A DNA stretch of 21,045 bases from Gracilariopsis chorda (taxonomy: Eukaryota > Rhodophyta > Florideophyceae > Gracilariales > Gracilariaceae). Each line of letters starts with the position of its first letter. Position 1 is the first letter of the stretch. Shown one piece after another: positions 1 through 17,276 of this stretch. Location: NCBI GenBank assembly GCA_003194525.1, contig NBIV01000507.1, positions 1 through 21,045 of the forward strand, read 5' to 3'. The notes beneath the pieces are model-generated. The model did not search any database. It was not told the origin of the DNA and saw only the letters and a list, made by a program, of their open reading frames with translations. The translations under genes were made by a program, and so were the position numbers.

Positions 1-1
1 A

Positions 2-136
2 AGGGAAGGAGCTAAAGCCCCTAAAACCCCTAAAGCCCCTAAACCGGGTAAGGGTAAATCCAAGGCCGGACCGTCCAAGAAGAACAAGTCGAAAAACGGG
101 CAAGGCGCTCCAGAACGGGGCGCCAAAGCAAACTAA
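2..136 (+). CDS. ORF1 C-terminal fragment, copy A
   Basis: The last 44 codons and stop of the ORF1 protein, identical in translation to the same part of the complete copies. It covers the Lys/Pro/Ala-rich basic tail (the AKAPKTPKAP stretch and KKNKSKNG), probably a nucleic-acid-binding or nuclear-targeting region. The upstream part lies outside the window, so start and intactness are unknown. Confidence 0.75.
   Translation, partial: REGAKAPKTPKAPKPGKGKSKAGPSKKNKSKNGQGAPERGAKAN
12..43 (+). repeat. telomere-like repeat inside ORF1, copy A
   Basis: About four CCCCTAAA-type repeats within coding sequence, on the same strand as the telomeric tract at 11138-11331. In copy A this lies almost at the left edge of the window. 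Confidence 0.7.
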
Positions 137-180
137 ACCGTACTAGACCACGGAAGCCCCGCTCTTCCCAGTCCAACGAA

Positions 181-1877
181 GTGAAGTTCAACACTCCTAT
201 TGGCATCCCGATTGAAGAAGTACCGTACTGTGTACGAAGAGTTCTCTCTGTTGGTGGTGGATTTGCCATAAGGACTTCACTCAAGGACTGCCTCAACGAA
301 GCTATCTCCAAGCTTCCTGGGAAACTCGAGAAGACGGGACAAGGGCTACCTAAGTCTACCTCCGAAATGGTTCTGAGGACCTGAGGGAAGCTGTTGAATC
401 GGTGAACTCAACTAGGAAGCCCGGAGCCCTTTCTAGCATCTTAAAGAAAGGTTCGAATACATCCGGAAGAAGAATTGGATTGTGAAGGAATCAGACAAGA
501 ACCTAGGCCTGGTGCTTATGCACAAAGAGGTATACTCCAACCTCGTAGAGGGGGAGTTAAGCAAGGGTGTATTTCTCTGAAGTGAACTCATTTCCTTATG
601 AGCAGATCTTCAGTAACCTTGTGAGGCTTACCAGAATAGGTAAGCTACCTCAACAGGAAAGGGAACTGATTTTGGATGAGGCTAAGGAACGCCAAAGCCC
701 CAACCCCTTCTATATCCTTCCGAAGATCCACAAGTCCACACTTGGAAGCAGGCCTATAACCGCTCAATGTTCATTCATATTGAGTGGTTTATCTCAAAGG
801 CTAAGCTCCGTCCTGAATGAGGTTGTACAGAGTATCAGAGTTATCACTGTCAACAGCAAACAGGCCGTGCGGCAATTGGAACAGCTGTATCTGCCCAAAG
901 ACTGCATCTTCGTTACTTATGATGTCGAAAGATGTTACCCTAACATTGACATCGATGATGCATGCAGAACACTGGTGGAATGCTTGCCTCATATCTTCCA
1001 AACCCAGAACTTCTTCTGGGCTCAAGTCCTACGCTTCATTATGAAGAACAACTTCATAACAGTGGACGGGAAGACGTACAAGCAGGAAACTGGTACAGCA
1101 ACAGGAACAGCAGTAGCTCCGGCTTTTGCCAATCTGTACCTGTATTTCAAGTTCCAACCGATCTTCAGAAGATTTGCCAAGGATATCATCTTTCAGAGGC
1201 GCTATATTGACGATGGGTTTATGATTCTAAGGAGCATAGGTGACCCCCAAAAAATTTTGGGATACCTGAACGCTTCAACAAACCTATCACTCACATATGT
1301 AGTAAGCCCTGGAAGAGCGGTATACCTTGATTTGGAAATCTACAAAGGAAAAAGGTTTTATAAGGAAAATCGTCTTGACTTGATGGTTTATACAAAACCA
1401 ATCTCAAAATTCCTTTATCTCCATGGCAAATCAGACCATCCGGAACACGTCTTTATTGGTATTGTGAAAGGAGAAATGATTCGCTATCTCCGCAACACAA
1501 ACTCTGAAGACGTATGGAAAAGGAAGGTAGCCTTTCTCTTTGGAAAGCTATCTCAACGAGGGTACACGAGGAAATACCTAAAGGAAGCTATCAAGTATGT
1601 TAGCTATAAGGATCGGGAATCCTATCTTCAAAATGATAGGAAAAAGGAACCGTTCAACCCAGGCCCATTTGTGACATGCCAATTCCATCCAGGCGCAAGG
1701 AAAGCTTGGAAAAGGCTGTACCAGTATGCTACATTGAAGTACATCTGGCCAGCCATCAAGGAACAGTGGCCCCACACGCTAATTCATTCAAGAGGCAAAA
1801 CGGTGGCCAAGGCGATCATATCGAGCAAGGAACAAACGAAGGAAGGCACCAGCAATGACATACAGCAAGACCTTTGA
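181..1877 (+). pseudogene. PLE reverse transcriptase ORF2, copy A, frameshifted
   Basis: The same ORF2 as at 3159-4856, but with three single-base homopolymer differences: one G missing near 376-377, one G missing near 450-451, and one extra T near 572-574. The net change is -1, so the reading frame breaks after codon 67 (stop ending at 384) and reopens at about 567-1877, where all catalytic motifs are intact and identical to the other copies. All three changes lie within 200 bases, in homopolymers, near the edge of the sequence, while the next 1.3 kb shows none. Sequencing or consensus error at a contig end is therefore as likely as true inactivation. Confidence 0.8.
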
Positions 1878-1962
1878 GTCCTGCGGGTCCTGCAGGTCCT
1901 TTAAGGTCTGCAAGGCCTAGGTGTCATAGCTGTAATACGTAGAGCAGTGAGTAGAATAGGTC

Positions 1963-1970
1963 TATATAAG
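1963..1970 (+). promoter_or_regulatory. TATA box, copy A
   Basis: TATATAAG followed by GGC, 86 bases after the ORF2 stop and 56 bases before the hammerhead paired region (2026). A start about 30 bases downstream would put the transcript 5' end just ahead of the ribozyme and would transcribe copy B. No transcript evidence is available. Confidence 0.6.
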
Positions 1971-2025
1971 GGCTACCCGCCTAGCGGAATCCCTTCTCCC
2001 CTCATCTCTCCTCACCACCAACCGA

Positions 2026-2061
2026 GGCACTGATGAGTCATAAAGACGAAAGCGCTCTGCC
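2026..2061 (+). ncRNA. type I hammerhead ribozyme, copy A
   Basis: Stem I GGCA (2026-2029) pairs with TGCC (2058-2061). The CTGATGA core is at 2030-2036. Stem II GTC (2037-2039) pairs with GAC (2045-2047) across loop ATAAA. GAAA is at 2048-2051. Stem III is only the self-complementary AGCGCT (2051-2056), followed by cleavage nucleotide C2057, so cleavage is predicted between 2057 and 2058. Very short palindromic stem III is typical of PLE hammerheads, which are reported to act as dimers. All conserved core bases are present. Confidence 0.88.
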
Positions 2062-2088
2062 CAAGTCAACTGTCTAAGCCTTAAGCCG

Positions 2089-2159
2089 TCTCTCTCCCTT
2101 CCCTTTCCCCTTCCCCGCCCCCTTCCCTTTCCCTCCTCCCCCCTCCCTCCTTTTCCCTC
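2089..2159 (+). other. polypyrimidine tract, copy A
   Basis: 71 bases of C and T broken by one G at 2117. It lies between the ribozyme and the unit junction, so it is both 3' sequence of copy A and predicted 5' leader of copy B. Confidence 0.8.
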
Positions 2160-2200
2160 ACCGCGAAGCGACGCCGCACATCCCCACCGCAACATTTCAA

Positions 2201-2213
2201 CCTAAAAACCCCT
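2201..2213 (+). repeat. telomere-like unit junction A/B
   Basis: CCTAAAAACCCCT, identical to the sequence where copy D runs into the telomeric tract. After this point copy D continues as telomeric repeat, while here copy B begins with TTTGCGGGACAG. This defines the unit boundary. Confidence 0.8.
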
Positions 2214-2268
2214 TTTGCGGGACAGTTGCCGTCGCCAGTCTCTTCTCAGCCATCCGCCACCCTTTACC

Positions 2269-3114
2269 ATGGCTCCCGGCACCCGTTCGGCTTCCAACGC
2301 CGCTTCGAACGACGGGATTTACAGCTCGATTGAGGAGCACCTTCACACCGTCACTGCACCCCTCGGCAAACGGATAGAAGATATTGAGAAGAAGATTGCC
2401 TCTCGCCGCGTCGTTCTGAATCAGCACTCTGAACATCGACGAAATGGAACGCTGCCGAAAGGGTTTGTGGCGCCGCGAATGCCACAAATCCCAGCGACCA
2501 TGGCGAATGAATTCCGTGAGAAGTTTGACTCCCTGGCTGAAAAATTCACAAAGGATGTACTCGATGTCGCCATCGTACTCCGAAACAAAGAAGTGAATCA
2601 GCTTCAGGCCGAGAAGGATCAGATCGTCAAAGACACCAAGGAAAAAGTCCACGAGGCACTCACTTATGCCGCAGGACTCCTTGACGATCTCCAACCCTCG
2701 GGTATCCCCTCCCTGGTCCAACGCTATATGACCAACTTTCTAAACCAACTCCAGGAGCAGAAAAGGGATAACGATGTCGCTTCAGTCTTCAAGGACTTTG
2801 TCACCAGAGAGAAGAAAGCAGCGGACCTCCTGAAGAATGCTGCTGCCGAGGCCGATGAAGTGGAGGCTCCTGAAGGAGTCGATCGGCTGCGCAAGGAGGT
2901 CCATTCAATGAAGAAGGAGATAGCTGCTCTCCGCTCTGGGAAGGCCAAGGATACCCCTAAAGGGAATAAAAAACCCTCAAGGGAAGGAGCTAAAGCCCCT
3001 AAAACCCCTAAAGCCCCTAAACCGGGTAAGGGTAAATCCAAGGCCGGACCGTCCAAGAAGAACAAGTCGAAAAACGGGCAAGGCGCTCCAGAACGGGGCG
3101 CCAAAGCAAACTAA
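2269..3114 (+). CDS. ORF1 gag-like coiled-coil protein, copy B
   Basis: A 281-aa protein of unknown family, probably the RNA-binding structural partner of the reverse transcriptase. The start is the ATG at 2269 in a strong ACCATGG context; the frame is open a little further upstream but has no ATG. Visible features are a short coiled coil (about residues 28-48), a helical Glu/Lys-rich middle (about 80-190), a second heptad region (about 204-223), and a very basic Lys/Pro/Gly tail (224-281). No CCHC zinc knuckle is visible. Residues about 240-251 are encoded by telomere-like DNA. ORF2 follows 44 nt after the stop in the -1 frame, and its open frame reaches back to 3036, overlapping ORF1. A gag-like role is inferred from position and composition only. 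Confidence 0.85.
   Translation: MAPGTRSASNAASNDGIYSSIEEHLHTVTAPLGKRIEDIEKKIASRRVVLNQHSEHRRNGTLPKGFVAPRMPQIPATMANEFREKFDSLAEKFTKDVLDVAIVLRNKEVNQLQAEKDQIVKDTKEKVHEALTYAAGLLDDLQPSGIPSLVQRYMTNFLNQLQEQKRDNDVASVFKDFVTREKKAADLLKNAAAEADEVEAPEGVDRLRKEVHSMKKEIAALRSGKAKDTPKGNKKPSREGAKAPKTPKAPKPGKGKSKAGPSKKNKSKNGQGAPERGAKAN
2990..3021 (+). repeat. telomere-like repeat inside ORF1, copy B
   Basis: Four successive CTAAAGCCC / CTAAAACCC-type units, read in the ORF1 frame as alternating Ala, Lys, Pro and Thr. The spacing and strand match the C-rich telomere strand. Confidence 0.75.
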
Positions 3115-3158
3115 ACCGTACTAGACCACGGAAGCCCCGCTCTTCCCAGTCCAACGAA

Positions 3159-4856
3159 GTGAAGTTCAACACTCCTATTGGCATCCCGATTGAAGAAGTA
3201 CCGTACTGTGTACGAAGAGTTCTCTCTGTTGGTGGTGGATTTGCCATAAGGACTTCACTCAAGGACTGCCTCAACGAAGCTATCTCCAAGCTTCCTGGGA
3301 AACTCGAGAAGACGGGACAAGGGCTACCTAAGTCTACCTCCGAAATGGTTCTGAGGGACCTGAGGGAAGCTGTTGAATCGGTGAACTCAACTAGGAAGCC
3401 CGGAGCCCTTTCTAGCATCTTAAAGAAAGGGTTCGAATACATCCGGAAGAAGAATTGGATTGTGAAGGAATCAGACAAGAACCTAGGCCTGGTGCTTATG
3501 CACAAAGAGGTATACTCCAACCTCGTAGAGGGGGAGTTAAGCAAGGGTGTATTCTCTGAAGTGAACTCATTTCCTTATGAGCAGATCTTCAGTAACCTTG
3601 TGAGGCTTACCAGAATAGGTAAGCTACCTCAACAGGAAAGGGAACTGATTTTGGATGAGGCTAAGGAACGCCAAAGCCCCAACCCCTTCTATATCCTTCC
3701 GAAGATCCACAAGTCCACACTTGGAAGCAGGCCTATAACCGCTCAATGTTCATTCATATTGAGTGGTTTATCTCAAAGGCTAAGCTCCGTCCTGAATGAG
3801 GTTGTACAGAGTATCAGAGTTATCACTGTCAACAGCAAACAGGCCGTGCGGCAATTGGAACAGCTGTATCTGCCCAAAGACTGCATCTTCGTTACTTATG
3901 ATGTCGAAAGATGTTACCCTAACATTGACATCGATGATGCATGCAGAACACTGGTGGAATGCTTGCCTCATATCTTCCAAACCCAGAACTTCTTCTGGGC
4001 TCAAGTCCTACGCTTCATTATGAAGAACAACTTCATAACAGTGGACGGGAAGACGTACAAGCAGGAAACTGGTACAGCAACAGGAACAGCAGTAGCTCCG
4101 GCTTTTGCCAATCTGTACCTGTATTTCAAGTTCCAACCGATCTTCAGAAGATTTGCCAAGGATATCATCTTTCAGAGGCGCTATATTGACGATGGGTTTA
4201 TGATTCTAAGGAGCATAGGTGACCCCCAAAAAATTTTGGGATACCTGAACGCTTCAACAAACCTATCACTCACATATGTAGTAAGCCCTGGAAGAGCGGT
4301 ATACCTTGATTTGGAAATCTACAAAGGAAAAAGGTTTTATAAGGAAAATCGTCTTGACTTGATGGTTTATACAAAACCAATCTCAAAATTCCTTTATCTC
4401 CATGGCAAATCAGACCATCCGGAACACGTCTTTATTGGTATTGTGAAAGGAGAAATGATTCGCTATCTCCGCAACACAAACTCTGAAGACGTATGGAAAA
4501 GGAAGGTAGCCTTTCTCTTTGGAAAGCTATCTCAACGAGGGTACACGAGGAAATACCTAAAGGAAGCTATCAAGTATGTTAGCTATAAGGATCGGGAATC
4601 CTATCTTCAAAATGATAGGAAAAAGGAACCGTTCAACCCAGGCCCATTTGTGACATGCCAATTCCATCCAGGCGCAAGGAAAGCTTGGAAAAGGCTGTAC
4701 CAGTATGCTACATTGAAGTACATCTGGCCAGCCATCAAGGAACAGTGGCCCCACACGCTAATTCATTCAAGAGGCAAAACGGTGGCCAAGGCGATCATAT
4801 CGAGCAAGGAACAAACGAAGGAAGGCACCAGCAATGACATACAGCAAGACCTTTGA
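3159..4856 (+). CDS. ORF2 Penelope-like reverse transcriptase, no endonuclease, copy B
   Basis: RNA-dependent DNA polymerase of the retroelement. Numbered from the GTG at 3159 (565 aa): N-terminal PLE region with VLSVGGGF (21-28) and KESDKNLGLVLM (103-114); LPKIHK (180-185) with RPI (191-193); catalytic Asp in TYDVE (D248); GTATGTAVAPAFANLY (305-320); the YIDD box (342-345, D344/D345); YLDLEIY (382-388); then thumb motifs KSDHPEH (417-423) and QRGY (459-462). The PLE linker-like end starts at FVTC (497). The protein stops about 65 residues later with no GIY-YIG domain. The first in-frame ATG is codon 63, inside the conserved N-terminus, so translation must begin at a non-AUG codon or through ORF1 by -1 frameshifting or reinitiation. 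GTG is only a coordinate choice. Confidence 0.93.
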   Translation: MKFNTPIGIPIEEVPYCVRRVLSVGGGFAIRTSLKDCLNEAISKLPGKLEKTGQGLPKSTSEMVLRDLREAVESVNSTRKPGALSSILKKGFEYIRKKNWIVKESDKNLGLVLMHKEVYSNLVEGELSKGVFSEVNSFPYEQIFSNLVRLTRIGKLPQQERELILDEAKERQSPNPFYILPKIHKSTLGSRPITAQCSFILSGLSQRLSSVLNEVVQSIRVITVNSKQAVRQLEQLYLPKDCIFVTYDVERCYPNIDIDDACRTLVECLPHIFQTQNFFWAQVLRFIMKNNFITVDGKTYKQETGTATGTAVAPAFANLYLYFKFQPIFRRFAKDIIFQRRYIDDGFMILRSIGDPQKILGYLNASTNLSLTYVVSPGRAVYLDLEIYKGKRFYKENRLDLMVYTKPISKFLYLHGKSDHPEHVFIGIVKGEMIRYLRNTNSEDVWKRKVAFLFGKLSQRGYTRKYLKEAIKYVSYKDRESYLQNDRKKEPFNPGPFVTCQFHPGARKAWKRLYQYATLKYIWPAIKEQWPHTLIHSRGKTVAKAIISSKEQTKEGTSNDIQQDL

Positions 4857-4941
4857 GTCCTGCGGGTCCTGCAGGTCCTTTAAGGTCTGCAAGGCCTAGG
4901 TGTCATAGCTGTAATACGTAGAGCAGTGAGTAGAATAGGTC

Positions 4942-4949
4942 TATATAAG
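4942..4949 (+). promoter_or_regulatory. TATA box, copy B
   Basis: TATATAAG at the same place as in copy A. It would drive transcription of copy C. Confidence 0.6.
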
Positions 4950-5004
4950 GGCTACCCGCCTAGCGGAATCCCTTCTCCCCTCATCTCTCCTCACCACCAA
5001 CCGA

Positions 5005-5040
5005 GGCACTGATGAGTCATAAAGACGAAAGCGCTCTGCC
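5005..5040 (+). ncRNA. type I hammerhead ribozyme, copy B
   Basis: Base-for-base the same as the ribozyme at 2026-2061. Predicted cleavage is between 5036 and 5037. Two successive ribozymes bound a 2979-nt unit-length RNA. Confidence 0.88.
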
Positions 5041-5067
5041 CAAGTCAACTGTCTAAGCCTTAAGCCG

Positions 5068-5138
5068 TCTCTCTCCCTTCCCTTTCCCCTTCCCCGCCCC
5101 CTTCCCTTTCCCTCCTCCCCCCTCCCTCCTTTTCCCTC
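5068..5138 (+). other. polypyrimidine tract, copy B
   Basis: The same 71-base C/T tract as at 2089-2159, between ribozyme and junction. Confidence 0.8.
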
Positions 5139-5179
5139 ACCGCGAAGCGACGCCGCACATCCCCACCGCAACATTTCAA

Positions 5180-5192
5180 CCTAAAAACCCCT
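5180..5192 (+). repeat. telomere-like unit junction B/C
   Basis: CCTAAAAACCCCT directly followed by the next unit's TTTGCGGG. Confidence 0.8.
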
Positions 5193-5247
5193 TTTGCGGG
5201 ACAGTTGCCGTCGCCAGTCTCTTCTCAGCCATCCGCCACCCTTTACC

Positions 5248-6093
5248 ATGGCTCCCGGCACCCGTTCGGCTTCCAACGCCGCTTCGAACGACGGGATTTA
5301 CAGCTCGATTGAGGAGCACCTTCACACCGTCACTGCACCCCTCGGCAAACGGATAGAAGATATTGAGAAGAAGATTGCCTCTCGCCGCGTCGTTCTGAAT
5401 CAGCACTCTGAACATCGACGAAATGGAACGCTGCCGAAAGGGTTTGTGGCGCCGCGAATGCCACAAATCCCAGCGACCATGGCGAATGAATTCCGTGAGA
5501 AGTTTGACTCCCTGGCTGAAAAATTCACAAAGGATGTACTCGATGTCGCCATCGTACTCCGAAACAAAGAAGTGAATCAGCTTCAGGCCGAGAAGGATCA
5601 GATCGTCAAAGACACCAAGGAAAAAGTCCACGAGGCACTCACTTATGCCGCAGGACTCCTTGACGATCTCCAACCCTCGGGTATCCCCTCCCTGGTCCAA
5701 CGCTATATGACCAACTTTCTAAACCAACTCCAGGAGCAGAAAAGGGATAACGATGTCGCTTCAGTCTTCAAGGACTTTGTCACCAGAGAGAAGAAAGCAG
5801 CGGACCTCCTGAAGAATGCTGCTGCCGAGGCCGATGAAGTGGAGGCTCCTGAAGGAGTCGATCGGCTGCGCAAGGAGGTCCATTCAATGAAGAAGGAGAT
5901 AGCTGCTCTCCGCTCTGGGAAGGCCAAGGATACCCCTAAAGGGAATAAAAAACCCTCAAGGGAAGGAGCTAAAGCCCCTAAAACCCCTAAAGCCCCTAAA
6001 CCGGGTAAGGGTAAATCCAAGGCCGGACCGTCCAAGAAGAACAAGTCGAAAAACGGGCAAGGCGCTCCAGAACGGGGCGCCAAAGCAAACTAA
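5248..6093 (+). CDS. ORF1 gag-like coiled-coil protein, copy C
   Basis: 281 aa, identical to the ORF1 product at 2269-3114. Same ACCATGG start, two heptad regions and basic tail. Confidence 0.85.
   Translation: MAPGTRSASNAASNDGIYSSIEEHLHTVTAPLGKRIEDIEKKIASRRVVLNQHSEHRRNGTLPKGFVAPRMPQIPATMANEFREKFDSLAEKFTKDVLDVAIVLRNKEVNQLQAEKDQIVKDTKEKVHEALTYAAGLLDDLQPSGIPSLVQRYMTNFLNQLQEQKRDNDVASVFKDFVTREKKAADLLKNAAAEADEVEAPEGVDRLRKEVHSMKKEIAALRSGKAKDTPKGNKKPSREGAKAPKTPKAPKPGKGKSKAGPSKKNKSKNGQGAPERGAKAN
5969..6000 (+). repeat. telomere-like repeat inside ORF1, copy C
   Basis: Identical to the copy at 2990-3021. Confidence 0.75.
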
Positions 6094-6137
6094 ACCGTAC
6101 TAGACCACGGAAGCCCCGCTCTTCCCAGTCCAACGAA

Positions 6138-7835
6138 GTGAAGTTCAACACTCCTATTGGCATCCCGATTGAAGAAGTACCGTACTGTGTACGAAGAGTT
6201 CTCTCTGTTGGTGGTGGATTTGCCATAAGGACTTCACTCAAGGACTGCCTCAACGAAGCTATCTCCAAGCTTCCTGGGAAACTCGAGAAGACGGGACAAG
6301 GGCTACCTAAGTCTACCTCCGAAATGGTTCTGAGGGACCTGAGGGAAGCTGTTGAATCGGTGAACTCAACTAGGAAGCCCGGAGCCCTTTCTAGCATCTT
6401 AAAGAAAGGGTTCGAATACATCCGGAAGAAGAATTGGATTGTGAAGGAATCAGACAAGAACCTAGGCCTGGTGCTTATGCACAAAGAGGTATACTCCAAC
6501 CTCGTAGAGGGGGAGTTAAGCAAGGGTGTATTCTCTGAAGTGAACTCATTTCCTTATGAGCAGATCTTCAGTAACCTTGTGAGGCTTACCAGAATAGGTA
6601 AGCTACCTCAACAGGAAAGGGAACTGATTTTGGATGAGGCTAAGGAACGCCAAAGCCCCAACCCCTTCTATATCCTTCCGAAGATCCACAAGTCCACACT
6701 TGGAAGCAGGCCTATAACCGCTCAATGTTCATTCATATTGAGTGGTTTATCTCAAAGGCTAAGCTCCGTCCTGAATGAGGTTGTACAGAGTATCAGAGTT
6801 ATCACTGTCAACAGCAAACAGGCCGTGCGGCAATTGGAACAGCTGTATCTGCCCAAAGACTGCATCTTCGTTACTTATGATGTCGAAAGATGTTACCCTA
6901 ACATTGACATCGATGATGCATGCAGAACACTGGTGGAATGCTTGCCTCATATCTTCCAAACCCAGAACTTCTTCTGGGCTCAAGTCCTACGCTTCATTAT
7001 GAAGAACAACTTCATAACAGTGGACGGGAAGACGTACAAGCAGGAAACTGGTACAGCAACAGGAACAGCAGTAGCTCCGGCTTTTGCCAATCTGTACCTG
7101 TATTTCAAGTTCCAACCGATCTTCAGAAGATTTGCCAAGGATATCATCTTTCAGAGGCGCTATATTGACGATGGGTTTATGATTCTAAGGAGCATAGGTG
7201 ACCCCCAAAAAATTTTGGGATACCTGAACGCTTCAACAAACCTATCACTCACATATGTAGTAAGCCCTGGAAGAGCGGTATACCTTGATTTGGAAATCTA
7301 CAAAGGAAAAAGGTTTTATAAGGAAAATCGTCTTGACTTGATGGTTTATACAAAACCAATCTCAAAATTCCTTTATCTCCATGGCAAATCAGACCATCCG
7401 GAACACGTCTTTATTGGTATTGTGAAAGGAGAAATGATTCGCTATCTCCGCAACACAAACTCTGAAGACGTATGGAAAAGGAAGGTAGCCTTTCTCTTTG
7501 GAAAGCTATCTCAACGAGGGTACACGAGGAAATACCTAAAGGAAGCTATCAAGTATGTTAGCTATAAGGATCGGGAATCCTATCTTCAAAATGATAGGAA
7601 AAAGGAACCGTTCAACCCAGGCCCATTTGTGACATGCCAATTCCATCCAGGCGCAAGGAAAGCTTGGAAAAGGCTGTACCAGTATGCTACATTGAAGTAC
7701 ATCTGGCCAGCCATCAAGGAACAGTGGCCCCACACGCTAATTCATTCAAGAGGCAAAACGGTGGCCAAGGCGATCATATCGAGCAAGGAACAAACGAAGG
7801 AAGGCACCAGCAATGACATACAGCAAGACCTTTGA
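6138..7835 (+). CDS. ORF2 Penelope-like reverse transcriptase, copy C
   Basis: 565 aa from the nominal GTG, identical to the product at 3159-4856, with intact TYDVE and YIDD catalytic motifs and no endonuclease. It has the same lack of an upstream ATG. Intact in this copy, so potentially active. Confidence 0.93.
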   Translation: MKFNTPIGIPIEEVPYCVRRVLSVGGGFAIRTSLKDCLNEAISKLPGKLEKTGQGLPKSTSEMVLRDLREAVESVNSTRKPGALSSILKKGFEYIRKKNWIVKESDKNLGLVLMHKEVYSNLVEGELSKGVFSEVNSFPYEQIFSNLVRLTRIGKLPQQERELILDEAKERQSPNPFYILPKIHKSTLGSRPITAQCSFILSGLSQRLSSVLNEVVQSIRVITVNSKQAVRQLEQLYLPKDCIFVTYDVERCYPNIDIDDACRTLVECLPHIFQTQNFFWAQVLRFIMKNNFITVDGKTYKQETGTATGTAVAPAFANLYLYFKFQPIFRRFAKDIIFQRRYIDDGFMILRSIGDPQKILGYLNASTNLSLTYVVSPGRAVYLDLEIYKGKRFYKENRLDLMVYTKPISKFLYLHGKSDHPEHVFIGIVKGEMIRYLRNTNSEDVWKRKVAFLFGKLSQRGYTRKYLKEAIKYVSYKDRESYLQNDRKKEPFNPGPFVTCQFHPGARKAWKRLYQYATLKYIWPAIKEQWPHTLIHSRGKTVAKAIISSKEQTKEGTSNDIQQDL

Positions 7836-7920
7836 GTCCTGCGGGTCCTGCAGGTCCTTTAAGGTCTGCAAGGCCTAGGTGTCATAGCTGTAATACGTAG
7901 AGCAGTGAGTAGAATAGGTC

Positions 7921-7928
7921 TATATAAG
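7921..7928 (+). promoter_or_regulatory. TATA box, copy C
   Basis: TATATAAG. It would drive transcription of copy D. Confidence 0.6.
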
Positions 7929-7983
7929 GGCTACCCGCCTAGCGGAATCCCTTCTCCCCTCATCTCTCCTCACCACCAACCGA

Positions 7984-8019
7984 GGCACTGATGAGTCATA
8001 AAGACGAAAGCGCTCTGCC
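7984..8019 (+). ncRNA. type I hammerhead ribozyme, copy C
   Basis: Same core, 3-bp stem II and AGCGCT palindromic stem III as copy A. Predicted cleavage is between 8015 and 8016. Confidence 0.88.
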
Positions 8020-8046
8020 CAAGTCAACTGTCTAAGCCTTAAGCCG

Positions 8047-8117
8047 TCTCTCTCCCTTCCCTTTCCCCTTCCCCGCCCCCTTCCCTTTCCCTCCTCCCCC
8101 CTCCCTCCTTTTCCCTC
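8047..8117 (+). other. polypyrimidine tract, copy C
   Basis: Same tract as in copies A and B, with T at 8087 where copy D has C. Confidence 0.8.
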
Positions 8118-8158
8118 ACCGCGAAGCGACGCCGCACATCCCCACCGCAACATTTCAA

Positions 8159-8171
8159 CCTAAAAACCCCT
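8159..8171 (+). repeat. telomere-like unit junction C/D
   Basis: CCTAAAAACCCCT directly followed by TTTGCGGG of copy D. Confidence 0.8.
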
Positions 8172-8226
8172 TTTGCGGGACAGTTGCCGTCGCCAGTCTC
8201 TTCTCAGCCATCCGCCACCCTTTACC

Positions 8227-9072
8227 ATGGCTCCCGGCACCCGTTCGGCTTCCAACGCCGCTTCGAACGACGGGATTTACAGCTCGATTGAGGAGCACCT
8301 TCACACCGTCACTGCACCCCTCGGCAAACGGATAGAAGATATTGAGAAGAAGATTGCCTCTCGCCGCGTCGTTCTGAATCAGCACTCTGAACATCGACGA
8401 AATGGAACGCTGCCGAAAGGGTTTGTGGCGCCGCGAATGCCACAAATCCCAGCGACCATGGCGAATGAATTCCGTGAGAAGTTTGACTCCCTGGCTGAAA
8501 AATTCACAAAGGATGTACTCGATGTCGCCATCGTACTCCGAAACAAAGAAGTGAATCAGCTTCAGGCCGAGAAGGATCAGATCGTCAAAGACACCAAGGA
8601 AAAAGTCCACGAGGCACTCACTTATGCCGCAGGACTCCTTGACGATCTCCAACCCTCGGGTATCCCCTCCCTGGTCCAACGCTATATGACCAACTTTCTA
8701 AACCAACTCCAGGAGCAGAAAAGGGATAACGATGTCGCTTCAGTCTTCAAGGACTTTGTCACCAGAGAGAAGAAAGCAGCGGACCTCCTGAAGAATGCTG
8801 CTGCCGAGGCCGATGAAGTGGAGGCTCCTGAAGGAGTCGATCGGCTGCGCAAGGAGGTCCATTCAATGAAGAAGGAGATAGCTGCTCTCCGCTCTGGGAA
8901 GGCCAAGGATACCCCTAAAGGGAATAAAAAACCCTCAAGGGAAGGAGCTAAAGCCCCTAAAACCCCTAAAGCCCCTAAACCGGGTAAGGGTAAATCCAAG
9001 GCCGGACCGTCCAAGAAGAACAAGTCGAAAAACGGGCAAGGCGCTCCAGAACGGGGCGCCAAAGCAAACTAA
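8227..9072 (+). CDS. ORF1 gag-like coiled-coil protein, copy D
   Basis: 281 aa, identical to the other complete ORF1 products. Start ATG in ACCATGG. Confidence 0.85.
   Translation: MAPGTRSASNAASNDGIYSSIEEHLHTVTAPLGKRIEDIEKKIASRRVVLNQHSEHRRNGTLPKGFVAPRMPQIPATMANEFREKFDSLAEKFTKDVLDVAIVLRNKEVNQLQAEKDQIVKDTKEKVHEALTYAAGLLDDLQPSGIPSLVQRYMTNFLNQLQEQKRDNDVASVFKDFVTREKKAADLLKNAAAEADEVEAPEGVDRLRKEVHSMKKEIAALRSGKAKDTPKGNKKPSREGAKAPKTPKAPKPGKGKSKAGPSKKNKSKNGQGAPERGAKAN
8948..8979 (+). repeat. telomere-like repeat inside ORF1, copy D
   Basis: Identical to the repeats in the other copies. Confidence 0.75.
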
Positions 9073-9116
9073 ACCGTACTAGACCACGGAAGCCCCGCTC
9101 TTCCCAGTCCAACGAA

Positions 9117-10814
9117 GTGAAGTTCAACACTCCTATTGGCATCCCGATTGAAGAAGTACCGTACTGTGTACGAAGAGTTCTCTCTGTTGGTGGTGGATTT
9201 GCCATAAGGACTTCACTCAAGGACTGCCTCAACGAAGCTATCTCCAAGCTTCCTGGGAAACTCGAGAAGACGGGACAAGGGCTACCTAAGTCTACCTCCG
9301 AAATGGTTCTGAGGGACCTGAGGGAAGCTGTTGAATCGGTGAACTCAACTAGGAAGCCCGGAGCCCTTTCTAGCATCTTAAAGAAAGGGTTCGAATACAT
9401 CCGGAAGAAGAATTGGATTGTGAAGGAATCAGACAAGAACCTAGGCCTGGTGCTTATGCACAAAGAGGTATACTCCAACCTCGTAGAGGGGGAGTTAAGC
9501 AAGGGTGTATTCTCTGAAGTGAACTCATTTCCTTATGAGCAGATCTTCAGTAACCTTGTGAGGCTTACCAGAATAGGTAAGCTACCTCAACAGGAAAGGG
9601 AACTGATTTTGGATGAGGCTAAGGAACGCCAAAGCCCCAACCCCTTCTATATCCTTCCGAAGATCCACAAGTCCACACTTGGAAGCAGGCCTATAACCGC
9701 TCAATGTTCATTCATATTGAGTGGTTTATCTCAAAGGCTAAGCTCCGTCCTGAATGAGGTTGTACAGAGTATCAGAGTTATCACTGTCAACAGCAAACAG
9801 GCCGTGCGGCAATTGGAACAGCTGTATCTGCCCAAAGACTGCATCTTCGTTACTTATGATGTCGAAAGATGTTACCCTAACATTGACATCGATGATGCAT
9901 GCAGAACACTGGTGGAATGCTTGCCTCATATCTTCCAAACCCAGAACTTCTTCTGGGCTCAAGTCCTACGCTTCATTATGAAGAACAACTTCATAACAGT
10001 GGACGGGAAGACGTACAAGCAGGAAACTGGTACAGCAACAGGAACAGCAGTAGCTCCGGCTTTTGCCAATCTGTACCTGTATTTCAAGTTCCAACCGATC
10101 TTCAGAAGATTTGCCAAGGATATCATCTTTCAGAGGCGCTATATTGACGATGGGTTTATGATTCTAAGGAGCATAGGTGACCCCCAAAAAATTTTGGGAT
10201 ACCTGAACGCTTCAACAAACCTATCACTCACATATGTAGTAAGCCCTGGAAGAGCGGTATACCTTGATTTGGAAATCTACAAAGGAAAAAGGTTTTATAA
10301 GGAAAATCGTCTTGACTTGATGGTTTATACAAAACCAATCTCAAAATTCCTTTATCTCCATGGCAAATCAGACCATCCGGAACACGTCTTTATTGGTATT
10401 GTGAAAGGAGAAATGATTCGCTATCTCCGCAACACAAACTCTGAAGACGTATGGAAAAGGAAGGTAGCCTTTCTCTTTGGAAAGCTATCTCAACGAGGGT
10501 ACACGAGGAAATACCTAAAGGAAGCTATCAAGTATGTTAGCTATAAGGATCGGGAATCCTATCTTCAAAATGATAGGAAAAAGGAACCGTTCAACCCAGG
10601 CCCATTTGTGACATGCCAATTCCATCCAGGCGCAAGGAAAGCTTGGAAAAGGCTGTACCAGTATGCTACATTGAAGTACATCTGGCCAGCCATCAAGGAA
10701 CAGTGGCCCCACACGCTAATTCATTCAAGAGGCAAAACGGTGGCCAAGGCGATCATATCGAGCAAGGAACAAACGAAGGAAGGCACCAGCAATGACATAC
10801 AGCAAGACCTTTGA
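9117..10814 (+). CDS. ORF2 Penelope-like reverse transcriptase, copy D
   Basis: 565 aa from the nominal GTG, identical to copies B and C although this is probably the oldest unit. That points to a very young array or to homogenisation. Confidence 0.93.
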   Translation: MKFNTPIGIPIEEVPYCVRRVLSVGGGFAIRTSLKDCLNEAISKLPGKLEKTGQGLPKSTSEMVLRDLREAVESVNSTRKPGALSSILKKGFEYIRKKNWIVKESDKNLGLVLMHKEVYSNLVEGELSKGVFSEVNSFPYEQIFSNLVRLTRIGKLPQQERELILDEAKERQSPNPFYILPKIHKSTLGSRPITAQCSFILSGLSQRLSSVLNEVVQSIRVITVNSKQAVRQLEQLYLPKDCIFVTYDVERCYPNIDIDDACRTLVECLPHIFQTQNFFWAQVLRFIMKNNFITVDGKTYKQETGTATGTAVAPAFANLYLYFKFQPIFRRFAKDIIFQRRYIDDGFMILRSIGDPQKILGYLNASTNLSLTYVVSPGRAVYLDLEIYKGKRFYKENRLDLMVYTKPISKFLYLHGKSDHPEHVFIGIVKGEMIRYLRNTNSEDVWKRKVAFLFGKLSQRGYTRKYLKEAIKYVSYKDRESYLQNDRKKEPFNPGPFVTCQFHPGARKAWKRLYQYATLKYIWPAIKEQWPHTLIHSRGKTVAKAIISSKEQTKEGTSNDIQQDL

Positions 10815-10899
10815 GTCCTGCGGGTCCTGCAGGTCCTTTAAGGTCTGCAAGGCCTAGGTGTCATAGCTGTAATACGTAGAGCAGTGAGTAGAATAGGTC

Positions 10900-10907
10900 T
10901 ATATAAG
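10900..10907 (+). promoter_or_regulatory. TATA box, copy D
   Basis: TATATAAG. Downstream of this copy there is no element, only telomeric tract and subtelomeric repeats, so any transcript from here would read the C-rich telomeric strand and the 75-bp repeats. Confidence 0.55.
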
Positions 10908-10962
10908 GGCTACCCGCCTAGCGGAATCCCTTCTCCCCTCATCTCTCCTCACCACCAACCGA

Positions 10963-10998
10963 GGCACTGATGAGTCATAAAGACGAAAGCGCTCTGCC
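10963..10998 (+). ncRNA. type I hammerhead ribozyme, copy D
   Basis: Complete core as in copy A. Predicted cleavage is between 10994 and 10995. Confidence 0.88.
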
Positions 10999-11025
10999 CA
11001 AGTCAACTGTCTAAGCCTTAAGCCG

Positions 11026-11096
11026 TCTCTCTCCCTTCCCTTTCCCCTTCCCCGCCCCCTTCCCTCTCCCTCCTCCCCCCTCCCTCCTTTTCCCTC
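11026..11096 (+). other. polypyrimidine tract, copy D
   Basis: Same tract, with the T-to-C difference at 11066. Confidence 0.8.
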
Positions 11097-11137
11097 ACCG
11101 CGAAGCGACGCCGCACATCCCCACCGCAACATTTCAA

Positions 11138-11331
11138 CCTAAAAACCCCTAAAAACCCCTAAAACCCCTAAAAAACCCCTAAAATCCCCTAAAAACCCCT
11201 AAAACCCCTAAAATCCCCTAAAAAACCCCTAAAAACCCCTAAAATACCCTAAAAACCCCTAAAGACCCCTAAAAAATCCCCTAAAAACCCCTAAATAACC
11301 CCTAAAACCCCCTAAAAACCCCTAAAAACCC
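11138..11331 (+). repeat. interstitial telomeric tract, C4TA4-5 type
   Basis: 194 bp of degenerate CCCCTAAAAA / CCCCTAAAA / CCCCTAAAAAA units, with variants such as TCCCCTAAAA, ATACCCTAAAA and AAAGACCCC. The C-rich strand reads 5'->3' rightwards, so the chromosome end lies to the left. The variability is typical of internal, eroded or naturally variable telomere repeats. The tract probably was the chromosome end before the element array was added. Confidence 0.85.
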
Positions 11332-11480
11332 GCTCTTCATTCTTTCTCGGAGGCTCCCTAATAAAAGCCTGCTTCGTCTCATTTGTTCCATGTGCGTAAA
11401 CATGACCACAATGCTTCGTTTGGGCAAATATGACCAGTACTACAAACCCCTAAACATTTGTCAGACATTTAAAAAACGCA
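11332..11480. other. transition from telomeric tract to subtelomeric repeat
   Basis: No gene seen. From about 11388 it carries a degraded copy of the 75-bp repeat (TGTGCGTAAACATG, then TTTGGGCAAATATG) without the CCAAGCGC core. Confidence 0.5.
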
Positions 11481-11499
11481 TTCCTTGGTTTCCACAAAT

Positions 11500-12010
11500 C
11501 TCTTCAAAACCAAGCGCTTTCGCCCTTTTGCACAATATGCGTTAACATGCCTGCATTGCATGGTTTTAGCAAATGTTGCAAAAACCAAGCGCTTTTGCAG
11601 TCTTGTACAATGTGCAAAAAAATCCACGCTTTGCTTGATCTCGCACCTAAACGGCCTAAAACCAAGCGCTTTCGCATATTTCTACAATGTGCGAAAATTC
11701 CCCCGCACTGCTAGGTTGCGTGAATGTGTCCAGAACCAAGCGCTTTCGATCATTTGCACAATGTGCGTAAACATGCCCGAAATGTTTGCTTTGGGCAAAT
11801 GTGTCCAAAACCAAGCGCTTTCGTACATTTGTACAATGTGCAAAATATTGACGTGTTGCTTGGTTTCTGCAAGCCAGTCCAAAACCAAGCGCTTTCCCAC
11901 ATTCTACAAATGAGCCAAAAAACATCCCACGCGCTTGGTCTGCGAAAAGCTGGCTAAAACCAAGCGCATGGAGCTTGCGACCAAACCTTGCCAAAACAGC
12001 TCAGAAACCA
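11500..12010. repeat. 75-bp subtelomeric tandem repeat (seven units)
   Basis: The core CCAAGCGC occurs at 11510, 11585, 11662, 11736, 11811, 11885 and 11960, at spacings of 75, 77, 74, 75, 74 and 75. Most units share AAAACCAAGCGCTTTCG, then ACAATGTGC about 20 bases later, and a divergent remainder. AAGCGCTT is palindromic. The open frames on both strands here only reflect the repeat length (75 = 25 codons) and are not genes. Confidence 0.85.
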
Positions 12011-12466
12011 TCCTTCCAAAGCCTCCGACACGCACATATGCGCGCGCGCGCACTTTCAGGACCTTCCTACAAGGCTCTGACAAATCGTGGCTAAAACCAA
12101 GCGCTGGGGCACCCTGTATTGGCGCGCTAAACCTTTAAATATGCGCCCAACCACGCTACTTACACGACATGCACGCGGCACGTGCCATATATGCTTAAAA
12201 CCAAGCGCAAACGGCGATGTCAAATCCTAATGTTTTGATGTATGCGCTTGGTTTTTAGCCGAACCAAGCATTCTATAATATTTAGCCAGGTTTTTTGAGC
12301 TCAAGCGTTTGTTTCATAACCGGCGCACAGCGCTTCGTCATCCACTGAAGGCATGAAAAACGTACATACAGCGATTCCACCACTCGTTCAACGTTTTGCG
12401 TCAGAACCAAGCGCTTGCCGACACCCCTCAAAACCAAGCGCAAACCCACACTTACATGCAACACTA
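12011..12466. repeat. scattered CCAAGCGC motifs, no gene
   Basis: CCAAGCGC at 12097, 12201, 12407 and 12434, and once inverted at 12244-12251, usually preceded by AAAA or GAA. The regular 75-bp spacing is lost. A CGCGCGCGC run lies near 12040. Nothing else recognised. Confidence 0.7.
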
Positions 12467-13093
12467 CTATAAGGATTGCTTGAAGGAGGCCATGTCCTTC
12501 TCAATGGCCTTCAACGCCTTATCTATGTTCTTTTGACGTTTTCTAATAGTTTTAGAACTTTTGCGTATTTGTGTCAAATGGCTCGTCACTCTGAGCCTGA
12601 ATGCTGGGAAGTCTACGTCTGTACCGTGTTCAGACAGGTTTCCTGTGTTGGCATTAATACCTTCTACACCATGAGGGGCTCCGATGACTGCTGTTGTGGC
12701 TGTATTTGTGCCTGCTGTTACTGCAACAGCCGCATTTCGCTTGTCTATAAGCCTCTGCGACCGTCTCAATGGGAGTGCAGCTCCTGCACTACCCTTTCCT
12801 ACTGCGCCAGAGCTTTCTACTTGCCCAAAAAACTCCACCGCACATACAGGGGGCGCAGGCATAATCCCAGCAGACTCAGTCCTACCTGTACTTGTGGAGC
12901 TGCTACCGTTTCCTGCTTCATTCGCTACGGGAAGATTAACTGCTGCCTGTGCAATGGCATGCACAGGCACAACGACTGGTGGGTGAGGTGGTGTGGGAGG
13001 CGTGGGAGGAGGATTTACCGGAGACAGTGGGGGTGAAAGAAAGCTTTCATTTGATGTCTCTGTTGAGAGCGACTCTGTGCCATGCTCTGACAT
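12467..13093 (-). CDS. hypothetical Pro/Ser/Thr-rich protein with basic C-terminal helix
   Basis: 208 aa from ATG at 13093. No family is recognised. Seen: Ser/Thr-rich N-terminus; Pro-rich PPTPPTPPHPP (about 29-39); Ala/Gly/Ser-rich middle; a basic LRRSQRLIDKR segment (about 107-117); a Lys/Arg-rich C-terminal helix (about 165-208) that could form a coiled coil. SEHGT occurs twice (residues 2-6 and again before the C-terminal part). It lies downstream of, and in the same direction as, the Ulp1-like gene, so it could be a separate gene, or a last exon or passenger of the same element. The overlapping plus-strand frame is Cys-rich nonsense and was judged a shadow. Confidence 0.5.
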   Translation of the reverse strand: MSEHGTESLSTETSNESFLSPPLSPVNPPPTPPTPPHPPVVVPVHAIAQAAVNLPVANEAGNGSSSTSTGRTESAGIMPAPPVCAVEFFGQVESSGAVGKGSAGAALPLRRSQRLIDKRNAAVAVTAGTNTATTAVIGAPHGVEGINANTGNLSEHGTDVDFPAFRLRVTSHLTQIRKSSKTIRKRQKNIDKALKAIEKDMASFKQSL

Positions 13094-13629
13094 TTCTTGT
13101 TCTACTTCAGTATGCTTTAGATGTCCTCTATACGAATTATTTGCCGTACGTTTATATCTCTGTATTGCTTGAAGACATTAGGATCCCCTTCTTTAGTAGA
13201 CCTCCTAAACATCACGCTATTGTACGTGTTACAATGGAAAGTAGCAAAACCCACACTACATGAGACACTCTAATCGTACTATTGTACAGTATCGGTTTGC
13301 TTCTATATGACACGTAAACCTAAAGACATATTTAATATGTAGTCCATACGCTCTGTATGAAACCCTCCGAAAGCACTGACCACTCTATGATACCGAAGCC
13401 CCAAAAACGTACACCTACGTTGCGGATCTACGACTACGGCAAAAAGGGGTCACCCCTAAACGTAACGGCTACTCACACCCGCTTACTCACCAGTAAGTAG
13501 AAAACACTCGACTTAAGATGCTCAGTCATTCCTTGAGGCCGATGTGCAAATCATACACGACCGTCTACCCCCCAATGGAATCATTGATCTTCATTGCATC
13601 TCAAGTACAGAACCCCAGTGACGCTTAAC
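13094..13629. other. intergenic region, no gene seen
   Basis: 536 bp between two minus-strand ORFs. It holds a near-perfect AT palindrome ACATATT/AATATGT (about 13327-13341) and a 13-base near-palindrome AGGGGTCACCCCT (about 13446). No clear promoter or terminator was identified. It may contain intron or leader sequence of the 12467-13093 gene. Confidence 0.5.
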
Positions 13630-14865
13630 CTACTCACGCACATTACTTTGCTCAGTCTTCATCCTTACCATAAGCTCATATATCTTACGCTTGCATGCCT
13701 TCCACTCACGCTTAAGTTCATCATCCTCCACTGTCTTCTCAAGCCCCAAGGCTTCCTCCACAACACTTAACAAACCCCGGTCACCACTACCATACTGCAG
13801 TCTGTTCTTGCATAGGGTATCTTCGACTTCTTCACGGTTTAGACCCGCGAACCCCTTGTGCAAAACTTCTTGTTCCATTTCCGCTGCCCGCTTCACCACC
13901 GCCCTCTTCTCACCATTCTGCTTCGAACGTACAACGAGATTGTTTGTATTTTCTGAAAAACAAACTGTCTTCACGCCTTCTAACTCTACGCCTGGCTGCC
14001 CATCGCACCCTTTCTTGGCACATTGTGAAAACACTTCATCCAGTACTCCCAATAAGATTCCTTGAACCCAGTTATGAACGTCAACCCTATGCCCTGCACT
14101 ACTCTCCCCGCAAACCCCAAAAGTCCCACGCCTGTTAATTCTTTTGCTTGGTGACACGGTGTTCGATCGTCCCTCGAGCTTTAGCCTATTTTGCACATCC
14201 TTCCGATACCCCTCTTTCACCCTTTCACATGCGTTTCCTAAATCTGAAAACCCCACTAAAAGCCCATCTTCTAAAACACGAAGTCGTTTGGTTGGCGTTC
14301 CCGGCACACTGAACTTGGCCCGCTGGCGTTTCCTCTGTTCCACTGCAGAGGCCTTGCCTAAACCACAAACCACTTCTCGTGAACAAACCCTCTTCTGATT
14401 TCCACGCATGTCTTCGTTGGAACGGCCAGCACCAGATTCTATTGATGCATCACCGAGTCCATTATCCTCTGGGTCTGAACCCCAAAGCCACACTGGCAGC
14501 TCAAAGGTCTGCTTGCCTCCATCACGATATTTCCCTATGCAAAATGCGAGTCGACTGAGCACTTCCCTCCGATATTGTTCAAACGCATAAGACGAGTGTC
14601 CTTTTGTCAGAATGGATTCCACTGTCGCAGGCGATCCAACCAGCAGGTTCTGAACCGCACGACTTAGCAGCGACACGTGGTACCCTACGTAGAAGCCGCA
14701 CTCCAAAGATCTCTGGAGAGAGAACCGGAGCTGATGGCATGATATCCTGGCCGCCACCGTTTCAACAGACGGCTTCACTACCCCTGGATAGCACAAGTTA
14801 AGATAATGGTACACATTGAGAGCCGTAGCAGCATGGGGTGACGATTTTCCAATACTGTCCACAAA
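13630..14865 (-). CDS. Ulp1/SENP-like protease, C-terminal part
   Basis: Open from just after an in-frame TAA (14866-14868) to TAG at 13630, with no ATG at its beginning, so it is the continuation of the ORF at 14866-16290 in the same frame. With the GTG at 14860-14862 as residue 1, it starts with DSIGKSSPH, resembling the LDS(L/M)G segment that carries the catalytic Asp of C48 (Ulp1/SENP) proteases. LECGFYVG follows, with Cys55 in the place of the (D)CG nucleophile and Gln50 nearby. The Asp-Cys spacing is 53 residues, the same as in human SENP1. The remaining 350 residues are an unrecognised, mostly polar region ending in a predicted coiled coil. Proteases of this class cleave SUMO/ubiquitin-like conjugates; the substrate here is unknown. 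Confidence 0.6.
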   Translation of the reverse strand, partial: FVDSIGKSSPHAATALNVYHYLNLCYPGVVKPSVETVAARISCHQLRFSLQRSLECGFYVGYHVSLLSRAVQNLLVGSPATVESILTKGHSSYAFEQYRREVLSRLAFCIGKYRDGGKQTFELPVWLWGSDPEDNGLGDASIESGAGRSNEDMRGNQKRVCSREVVCGLGKASAVEQRKRQRAKFSVPGTPTKRLRVLEDGLLVGFSDLGNACERVKEGYRKDVQNRLKLEGRSNTVSPSKRINRRGTFGVCGESSAGHRVDVHNWVQGILLGVLDEVFSQCAKKGCDGQPGVELEGVKTVCFSENTNNLVVRSKQNGEKRAVVKRAAEMEQEVLHKGFAGLNREEVEDTLCKNRLQYGSGDRGLLSVVEEALGLEKTVEDDELKREWKACKRKIYELMVRMKTEQSNVRE

Positions 14866-16290: not shown

Positions 16291-17276
16291 GTTGAAAACT
16301 CGCGTGAGGGTGAATCATGAGACAGTGGCGTGCCTTCAGATGTGCGCTTCTCTGCTTTTGGCTTTGCAGCTTGGCTTTGAGATGTGTCTCCTTTTCTTCC
16401 GCGCCCCTTCCCGTCTACCTCCCGTCCAATCCGATCGGAGAACAAATATTTCACTCTATTACCTGTCTCTCGACGAACTTTCCATAGCTCAATCACCTTT
16501 CTCATCTTCGTCACTGACCAGTTCCGCACTGAGTTGAGCGACGATTTGTTGAATGCAGCAACACCGAGTCGTTCCAAGTAGGAGAGGTACGGAACAACAC
16601 CATCCTCTAACAGACGATCCGCGCCAGACATGTAGTGTCGCCTTGTGGATTGCTTCATATCCGTAAGAAACTCAATCGCCCATCTCGACGTAGGACCCGC
16701 TCTATCCACCGTTTTCTCATAGAACTCGTAGAGCTTCCTGTGTGACATTGCTTGGGGAATTGCCTTCTTTCCTTTCAGCTGAGAAACGCGGTCTTTTTCC
16801 ATGCGCTGCCGTCGCTCCTTCAGATCCCCGTAGAGTGTGATCTGCTGCATAAATCCGTACTTCTCCGGGCGTGGCTCAGTTACTTCAACGTGGAACGCGA
16901 TTAGCCCCCTGTACTCAAATAGATCCAAGGTGTCTCCGTCCGTACCCAGTCCATCAAACGAGACCATCCTATACGGCAAAATAAGCGCATGTAGTACTCT
17001 ACCAGATGCCAGTAATCGATGACCGCCTCCGATAACCACGAGTCGTCCCTGCGTAGACGGCGTAGTTCCCTTCACTACGAGTAGATGCTCCCAACTGTGA
17101 AAGCGTTGCGGAGCCCCATTGTCTTCACTCAGTGTTTGTAGTCGTAACGAGGAGGTTTCGCGTCCGAAAAAATGGTCCGATGAACAGGTCAACTGCAGCG
17201 TATCACGTAGTAGAACCCCTCCCCTGCTCGATTCGGCGCTTAATCTGTGAGGAAATAGAGGATGCAAGATGTGCAT
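16176..17276 (-). CDS. hypothetical protein, probable upstream part of the Ulp1-like gene
   Basis: 366 codons in a different frame, overlapping the next ORF by 115 bases. No family recognised. The region of about residues 40-130 looks globular and mixed alpha/beta (LVVIGGGHRLL, VLHALILPYRMVSF, LIAFHVEV). The region of about 140-280 is helical and charged. The last 80 residues are Ser/Pro/Lys-rich like the start of the next ORF, which suggests one disordered linker split by an intron or frameshift. The ATG at 17276 may not be the true start: a CCTCACAG splice-acceptor-like sequence and a CTAAT branch-like site lie at and just above it. Confidence 0.5.
   Translation of the reverse strand: MHILHPLFPHRLSAESSRGGVLLRDTLQLTCSSDHFFGRETSSLRLQTLSEDNGAPQRFHSWEHLLVVKGTTPSTQGRLVVIGGGHRLLASGRVLHALILPYRMVSFDGLGTDGDTLDLFEYRGLIAFHVEVTEPRPEKYGFMQQITLYGDLKERRQRMEKDRVSQLKGKKAIPQAMSHRKLYEFYEKTVDRAGPTSRWAIEFLTDMKQSTRRHYMSGADRLLEDGVVPYLSYLERLGVAAFNKSSLNSVRNWSVTKMRKVIELWKVRRETGNRVKYLFSDRIGREVDGKGRGRKGDTSQSQAAKPKAEKRTSEGTPLSHDSPSREFSTCATLRTRSPSPKTRLLGSPPHATPQSTKTARQPIPLH

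Follow-up and report, generated by a model that had tools for sequence, protein, structure and literature searches.

The analysed window of 21,045 nucleotides comprises the entire contig C505 of a eukaryotic genome assembly (91.3 Mb, 1081 contigs). Blastn searches with the unit located three complete units of 2979 bp each, arranged head to tail on the plus strand and spanning positions 2213-11149. The complete unit at 5192..8170 (plus strand), used here as the reference for unit coordinates, was identical over 2979 bp to the complete unit at 2213..5191 (plus strand) and differed from the innermost complete unit (8171..11149, plus strand) by a single mismatch, where the innermost unit has C in place of T (unit position 2896). 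The outermost copy (1..2212, plus strand; unit 767-2979) was cut by the contig start and matched at 99.9%, with 0 mismatches and 3 gaps. Its reverse-transcriptase frame was broken by single-base indels, which may represent consensus errors at the contig end. Of the array of four complete, near-identical and intact units described in an earlier, sequence-only reading, the single orientation and the near-identity (0-1 mismatch among complete units) were thus retained, but only three units were complete and the frame of the fourth was not intact. The 3' ends of all units in the window pointed to a telomeric tract (11138..11331, plus strand) of approximately 19 CCCCTAAAA-type repeats with variable spacing. 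As that reading had stated, the innermost 3' end merged into this tract without a seam.

Next to the telomeric tract lay a subtelomeric block (11332..12480, no strand assigned) that contains a 75-bp repeat, and a very similar block, as judged by eye, was present on contig C306 under plain telomere repeats. On C505 this block adjoins the element array, whereas on C306 it is capped up to the contig end by telomere repeats, with no array beyond. An array-bearing and an array-free end with much the same block are therefore available for comparison. Further inward in the window, positions 12467-17276 contained successive minus-strand ORFs with no Pfam match above cut-off; one of these had a GHW stretch that, by eye, was reminiscent of the C48 proteases of some transposons.

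Each unit contained an ORF1 and a reverse transcriptase (RT) ORF2, with no other sense ORF of at least 100 aa. ORF1 (5248..6093, plus strand; 281 aa from ATG) occupied the same place in every complete unit, had a tail that appeared K/P-rich by eye and showed no Pfam match above cut-off. ORF2 (6138..7835, plus strand; 565 aa from GTG, with the frame open from further upstream) matched RVT_1 with an E-value of 2e-7. This was the sole above-cut-off Pfam match in both ORFs, in which no endonuclease, including GIY-YIG, was found. A homologue search with the RT yielded 860 matches, 120 of which were listed and 39 of these aligned. Across the resulting 40 aligned sequences, residues D248, D344 and D345 of the RT were invariant; 34 of the 40 proteins matched RVT_1, and no other family was matched by more than one. 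Homologues among the 120 listed of 860 matches carried the precomputed domains PF28514 and PF26215, both without names. A structure model predicted a TERT-like fold for the RT which, together with the lack of a detected endonuclease, agreed with the initial description of an endonuclease-lacking Penelope-like element. When the RT sequence was compared with solved structures, the best match was an RNA-directed DNA polymerase (8bgj, E 2e-4), and telomerase was absent among the 8 matches listed. The start of ORF2 (window 6060-6150) was GTG in the family found in the window (family A), TTG in a second family (B) and ATG at that place in a third (C). The ORF2 frame differs from that of ORF1 and its open frame overlaps the ORF1 end, and translation of ORF2 may involve a non-AUG start, reinitiation or a frameshift.

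A protein search detected at least 79 RT matches genome-wide, a count that is a lower bound because 77 of 369 candidates were scored. Units of the three families, each with two ORFs, measured 2979 bp (A), approximately 3265 bp (B) and approximately 3111 bp (C). Amino-acid identity of the RT was 50% between A and B, 52% between A and C and 62% between B and C; for ORF1, identity among the families was 37-51%. Frames were open in many genome copies, and codon positions 1 and 2 were more conserved than position 3 between families. All three families formed arrays. An exact 32-nt pattern for a ribozyme-like core (see below) had 165 matches in the genome and 0 for the reversed control; a second pattern, consisting of two sequence arms separated by 25-55 nt across the junction between tandem units, had 146 matches against 0 in its control. 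These counts ruled out a chance origin of the array and confirmed that it is real. The 100 core matches listed out of 165 were located on 23 contigs, on one strand only per contig. At all contig ends for which the inner flank was examined (11/11), the 5' ends of the units faced outward. Minus-strand copies occurred at the right ends of C3, C117, C151, C247, C263, C269 and C319, and plus-strand copies at the left ends of C343, C505, C591 and C907. Other array-bearing contigs consisted of array as far as examined and were uninformative on direction. The search for other contig ends carrying the element was therefore successful, and the claim that 5' ends face the chromosome end held for polarity, with "chromosome end" to be read as contig end: no array reached a physical terminus in the stretches examined, and the arrays are putatively terminal.

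Copies away from contig ends were found on C193, C58 and C157, each of them single and 5'-truncated, and a subterminal copy was found on C306. The copies on C193 and C306 were diverged and A-like, and by eye both began at the inner edge of the subtelomeric block. The C157 copy was also diverged and had an orientation opposite to the others; at this copy, the one inspected by eye, no target-site duplication was evident. A copy on C343 that is truncated at unit position 2211 was capped by approximately 520 bp of telomere-like repeats, with more units beyond, so that addition of the element and addition of repeats seem to alternate. This was the one clear case of a capped truncation; the solo copies described below were likewise capped but had a single start in common, and the 5'-truncated copies on C306, C193, C58 and C157 were not directly capped by telomeric repeats. 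A scrambled stretch between two A units on C343 (4703-4913) resembled a damaged unit end and could reflect an error or a rearrangement.

Each unit ended in a telomere-complementary motif, CCTAAAAACCCC (5180..5191, plus strand, for the unit preceding the reference unit). Free 3' ends were located by means of the left one of the two junction arms, a scan that misses ends with a mutated left arm, such as that of the full unit beside the solo copy on C117. Among the 19 free 3' ends located in this way, 18 terminated at this one motif; the remaining one stopped approximately 20 nt earlier, likewise into telomeric repeats. Sixteen of the 19 continued into telomeric words, some internal copies for a short stretch only, while the other three showed 4-6 bases of mostly telomeric sequence followed by a solo copy. 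The proposed position of 3' ends at telomeric repeats was thereby substantiated. A stop at this motif fits what would be predicted if the RNA anneals to a G-rich overhang.

Information on the other end of the RNA came from solo copies of the 199-bp 3' segment (4993..5191, plus strand; unit 2781-2979). Four such copies were present, one on C117, two on C343 and one on C907, with a length of 199 bp (200 on C907). When the genome was searched for the ribozyme core lying no more than 30 bases after a telomere repeat, exactly these four were retrieved, against 0 matches in the control. All four began with ACCACCAACC, with the precise first base blurred by adjacent As. The C907 copy had an extra G at its start, in this one case perhaps a copied cap. 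The shared start points to unit position 2781 (window 4993) as the probable 5' end of the RNA, inside the 3' UTR. A TATA-like box, TATATAAGG (4942..4950, plus strand), which is common to families A, B and C and recurs near the 3' end of each unit, lay approximately 50 nt ahead of this start. An RNA 5' end at 2781 would imply that the putative promoter serving a unit lies in the 3' UTR of the unit before it, an arrangement described for HeT-A, whose 3' UTR promoter lies ahead of its downstream neighbour (PMC5537684).

The same segment contained a minimal hammerhead-like core (5004..5040, plus strand) with short stems I and II and almost no helix III. It was recognised by the arrangement CUGANGA ... 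GAAA ... UC, which we take to be the hammerhead consensus, and was common to the three families save for two variable positions. Rfam hammerhead models matched the core weakly, far below cut-off, and an Rfam scan of the entire window detected no hammerhead up to an E-value of 1. Approximately 150 nt separated the core from the 3' motif. Hammerheads of Penelope-like elements (PLEs) are described as usually lacking helix III (PMC6155905, PMC7761336), and their role has been termed still a mystery (PMC7761336). Ribozyme cleavage was rejected as the origin of the 5' ends of the solo copies, as these ends precede the site where cleavage would be expected. Since the solo copies retain the part upstream of this site, their templates would have been uncleaved there. 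This agrees with the report that PAc, a PLE from Anolis, mainly uses unprocessed RNA as its substrate in vitro (PMC11167929).

Noncoding blocks common to A, B and C, in comparisons of 370-494 nt, were TATATAAGG, most of the hammerhead core, GCGACGCCGCACA, AAAAACCCCT and AGTTGCCGTCGCC; shuffled sequences contained on average 0.03 shared blocks of 9. Low-complexity pyrimidine blocks, although also shared, were given no weight. Two of the blocks are GC-rich and lie on either side of the telomere motif at the tandem junction: a left arm, GCGACGCCGCACA (5147..5159, plus strand), and a right arm, AGTTGCCGTCGCC (5203..5215, plus strand), in the 5' UTR of the next unit. The arms are able to form 9 bp interrupted by a 2-nt bulge, and pairing as good as this occurred in 120 of 20,000 shuffled block sets; as the arms are invariant, there is no covariation. 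The 100 junctions listed of the 146 matching the two-arm pattern belonged to families A, B and C only and were alike within each family save for small indels. In a 100-nt frame, the outer stem had a predicted pairing probability of 0.84-1.0 in the three families; the motif was predicted to be unpaired in A (0.93-1.0), while in B and C it was partly paired. In longer family A frames, the minimum-energy fold lost the outer stem. PAc is reported to start reverse transcription internally, near its repeat-ORF junction (PMC11167929), and by analogy the possible hairpin would be located at the corresponding place. Internal initiation of reverse transcription therein appears possible to likely. Judged against the accounts given in later papers, the shared hammerhead-like core, the solo copies with one start and the complementary arms appear to be newly described.

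A search of the assembly for telomerase located an open TERT frame of at least 1031 aa on C110, with matches to Telomerase_RBD (E 2e-28) and RVT_1 and with TERT_C just under cut-off. Plain telomere repeats were present at the ends of C9, C45, C60, C95, C306 and C639. The suggestion that the element acts instead of telomerase was thereby contradicted, and replacement of the HeT-A/TART type, in a host without telomerase, was rejected: given the frame on C110, the element has not replaced the telomerase gene. The telomere repeats varied in spacing, as CCCCTAAAA with 0-2 extra bases, for example on C343 and C306, which suggests either slippage of telomerase on its template or the existence of variants.

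Taken together, these results are best explained by a compact Penelope-like element that is endonuclease-deficient, attaches to telomeres and occurs as three families in a telomerase-bearing genome, and we assign a probability of roughly 0.75 to this reading, including the following cycle. Transcription of a unit in the array would be driven from the 3' UTR of its upstream neighbour, by a promoter with the TATA box and the RNA start at unit 2781. The resulting RNA would bear the telomere-complementary motif CCUAAAAACCCC between the two complementary arms. The telomerase-like RT would anneal CCUAAAAACCCC to a G-rich 3' overhang (TTTTAGGGG) and copy the RNA to its 5' end. A start at the first motif would yield a 199-bp solo copy, and a start after one or more units a longer copy. 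Telomerase would then add repeats to the new end, on which the next copy could land. Exact multi-unit arrays would arise by copying of multi-unit RNA or by later recombination. A more far-reaching version of this cycle, in which the messenger resembles a telomerase RNA with its own gene, the junction hairpin holds the template, internal starts occur on uncleaved RNA and the junction used sets whether a solo, single or multi-unit copy is made, with the result that chromosome ends are extended by 0.2 kb or 3 kb at a time in parallel with telomerase, is speculative and rather unlikely to hold in full.

How the arrays were enlarged bears directly on this reading. If each unit had been added singly from the mapped RNA, a 199-bp tag should mark every junction. 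The 77 core spacings obtained from the 100 listed of 165 cores comprised 70 of one unit, three of two units, three of solo type and one irregular spacing. With exact periodicity and without 199-bp tags, stepwise addition of single units was disfavoured as the sole source of arrays, and the spacings point instead to copying from multi-unit RNA or enlargement by recombination. The proposed outward growth was thus supported by polarity and 3' junctions, but weakened in its unit-by-unit form. It is conceivable, with somewhat less than even odds, that the arrays owe their origin chiefly to recombination (by unequal exchange, break-induced replication or rolling-circle-like amplification of telomeric DNA) that followed rare insertions, with retrotransposition slow or extinct. 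The exact unit period without tags at 70 of 77 spacings, the uniformity of the tandem junctions within families and the near-zero divergence between units in the window would all follow from such a history. Solo copies with a fixed start and telomere tracts between copies, however, indicate separate addition events, and the many open frames and the codon-position constraint between families argue that RT function has been kept. The element may be active at present. The solo copies themselves could have a different origin, to which we give a similar, slightly less than even chance: when an RNA that starts at 2781 is copied in full, the product would have the same 199 bp on either side, and exchange between its ends would leave exactly a solo copy, comparable to a solo terminal repeat, without internal initiation. 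None of the blasted loci held a copy next to telomere repeats that had the 199 bp at both ends, which speaks against this route. The RNA start at 2781 stands under either origin.

Insertion into internal telomere-like tracts or double-strand breaks, with the terminal position reflecting survivor bias, is improbable. Internal or subterminal copies do exist on C58, C157 and C193, and short internal telomeric tracts occur elsewhere in the genome; yet those copies are single and 5'-truncated, the ones on C157 and C193 are diverged, and arrays with an examined inner flank lay at contig ends in one orientation in 11 of 11 cases. The same evidence bears on the statement that copies in both orientations at non-telomeric sites, with target-site duplications, would speak against telomeric growth: an internal, reversed copy was found on C157, but the arrays kept to one orientation at the ends. 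An assembly artefact, in the form of a collapsed or falsely extended repeat, could account for the frameshifting indels in the copy at the start of C505 and in some copies near other contig ends. It is nevertheless highly improbable in view of the many contigs, distinct inner flanks, three families and different junctions involved.

The preferred reading, a telomere-attaching PLE, places the element in a known kind, to which it fits by its features. Telomere-associated endonuclease-deficient PLEs, comprising Athena of bdelloid rotifers and fungal, protist and plant elements, are described as having an RT without GIY-YIG, two ORFs, a location at chromosome ends and telomeric repeats at the 3' end that are also added to truncated 5' ends (PMC3846280, PMC5537684, PMC6431247). 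The likeness to Athena-type elements noted previously was upheld by the descriptions in PMC3846280 and PMC6431247: the RT without GIY-YIG, the two ORFs and the telomeric 3' repeats are shared, here at contig ends. Units here are shorter (3.0-3.3 kb versus 4-6 kb; PMC6431247) and form long exact arrays of complete units, whereas those descriptions stress 5'-truncated copies. The giant Athena-bearing Terminons share a hammerhead followed by a C-rich, telomere-complementary 3' end and long head-to-tail arrays (PMC6431247, PMC12477314). Terminon units can, however, exceed 40 kb and carry extra ORFs, whereas the units found here (2979, ~3111 and ~3265 bp) have only two ORFs and no giant units with accessory ORFs were found. 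PAc likewise forms tandem units with a hammerhead in the repeat and an internal start (PMC11167929), but has a GIY-YIG endonuclease and an AT-rich preference, in contrast to the telomeric 3' ends and telomere-complementary motif of the present element. HeT-A and TAHRE of Drosophila also form head-to-tail telomeric arrays in one direction and have the 3' UTR promoter that is proposed here (PMC5537684); they are non-LTR elements that carry 3' oligo(A) and belong to a host lacking telomerase, as opposed to a TERT-like RT, telomeric 3' ends and a TERT gene. PLE reverse transcriptases and telomerase are held to share common ancestry (PMC3846280). The element resembles telomerase in its predicted RT fold and, putatively, in a short telomere-complementary RNA stretch, but would copy a whole 3-kb unit rather than one repeat, from a template in its own messenger.

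End choice and copying by endonuclease-deficient PLEs have apparently so far been inferred from sequence. Because a single genome here offers three open-framed families, long arrays and copies that mark both RNA ends, two questions become directly testable, namely the RNA site at which copying starts and the purpose of the hammerhead.

In a search for relatives in viral contigs, 46 stretches fitted a pattern and 0 were confirmed. Another repeated sequence, with copies on C756 and C927, had five telomeric repeats as a short internal tract, in a matching position in each copy. Within ORF1, the K/P-rich tail was encoded by telomere-like codons, CCCCTAAAACCCCTAAAGCCCCTAAACC (window 5969-6003, and in each unit), and telomere-like words also occurred in family B at about the same place; CCCCTAAAACCCCTAAAGCCCCTAAACC may provide the RNA with a second site complementary to telomere repeats, or the likeness may be a chance effect of Pro-Lys codons.
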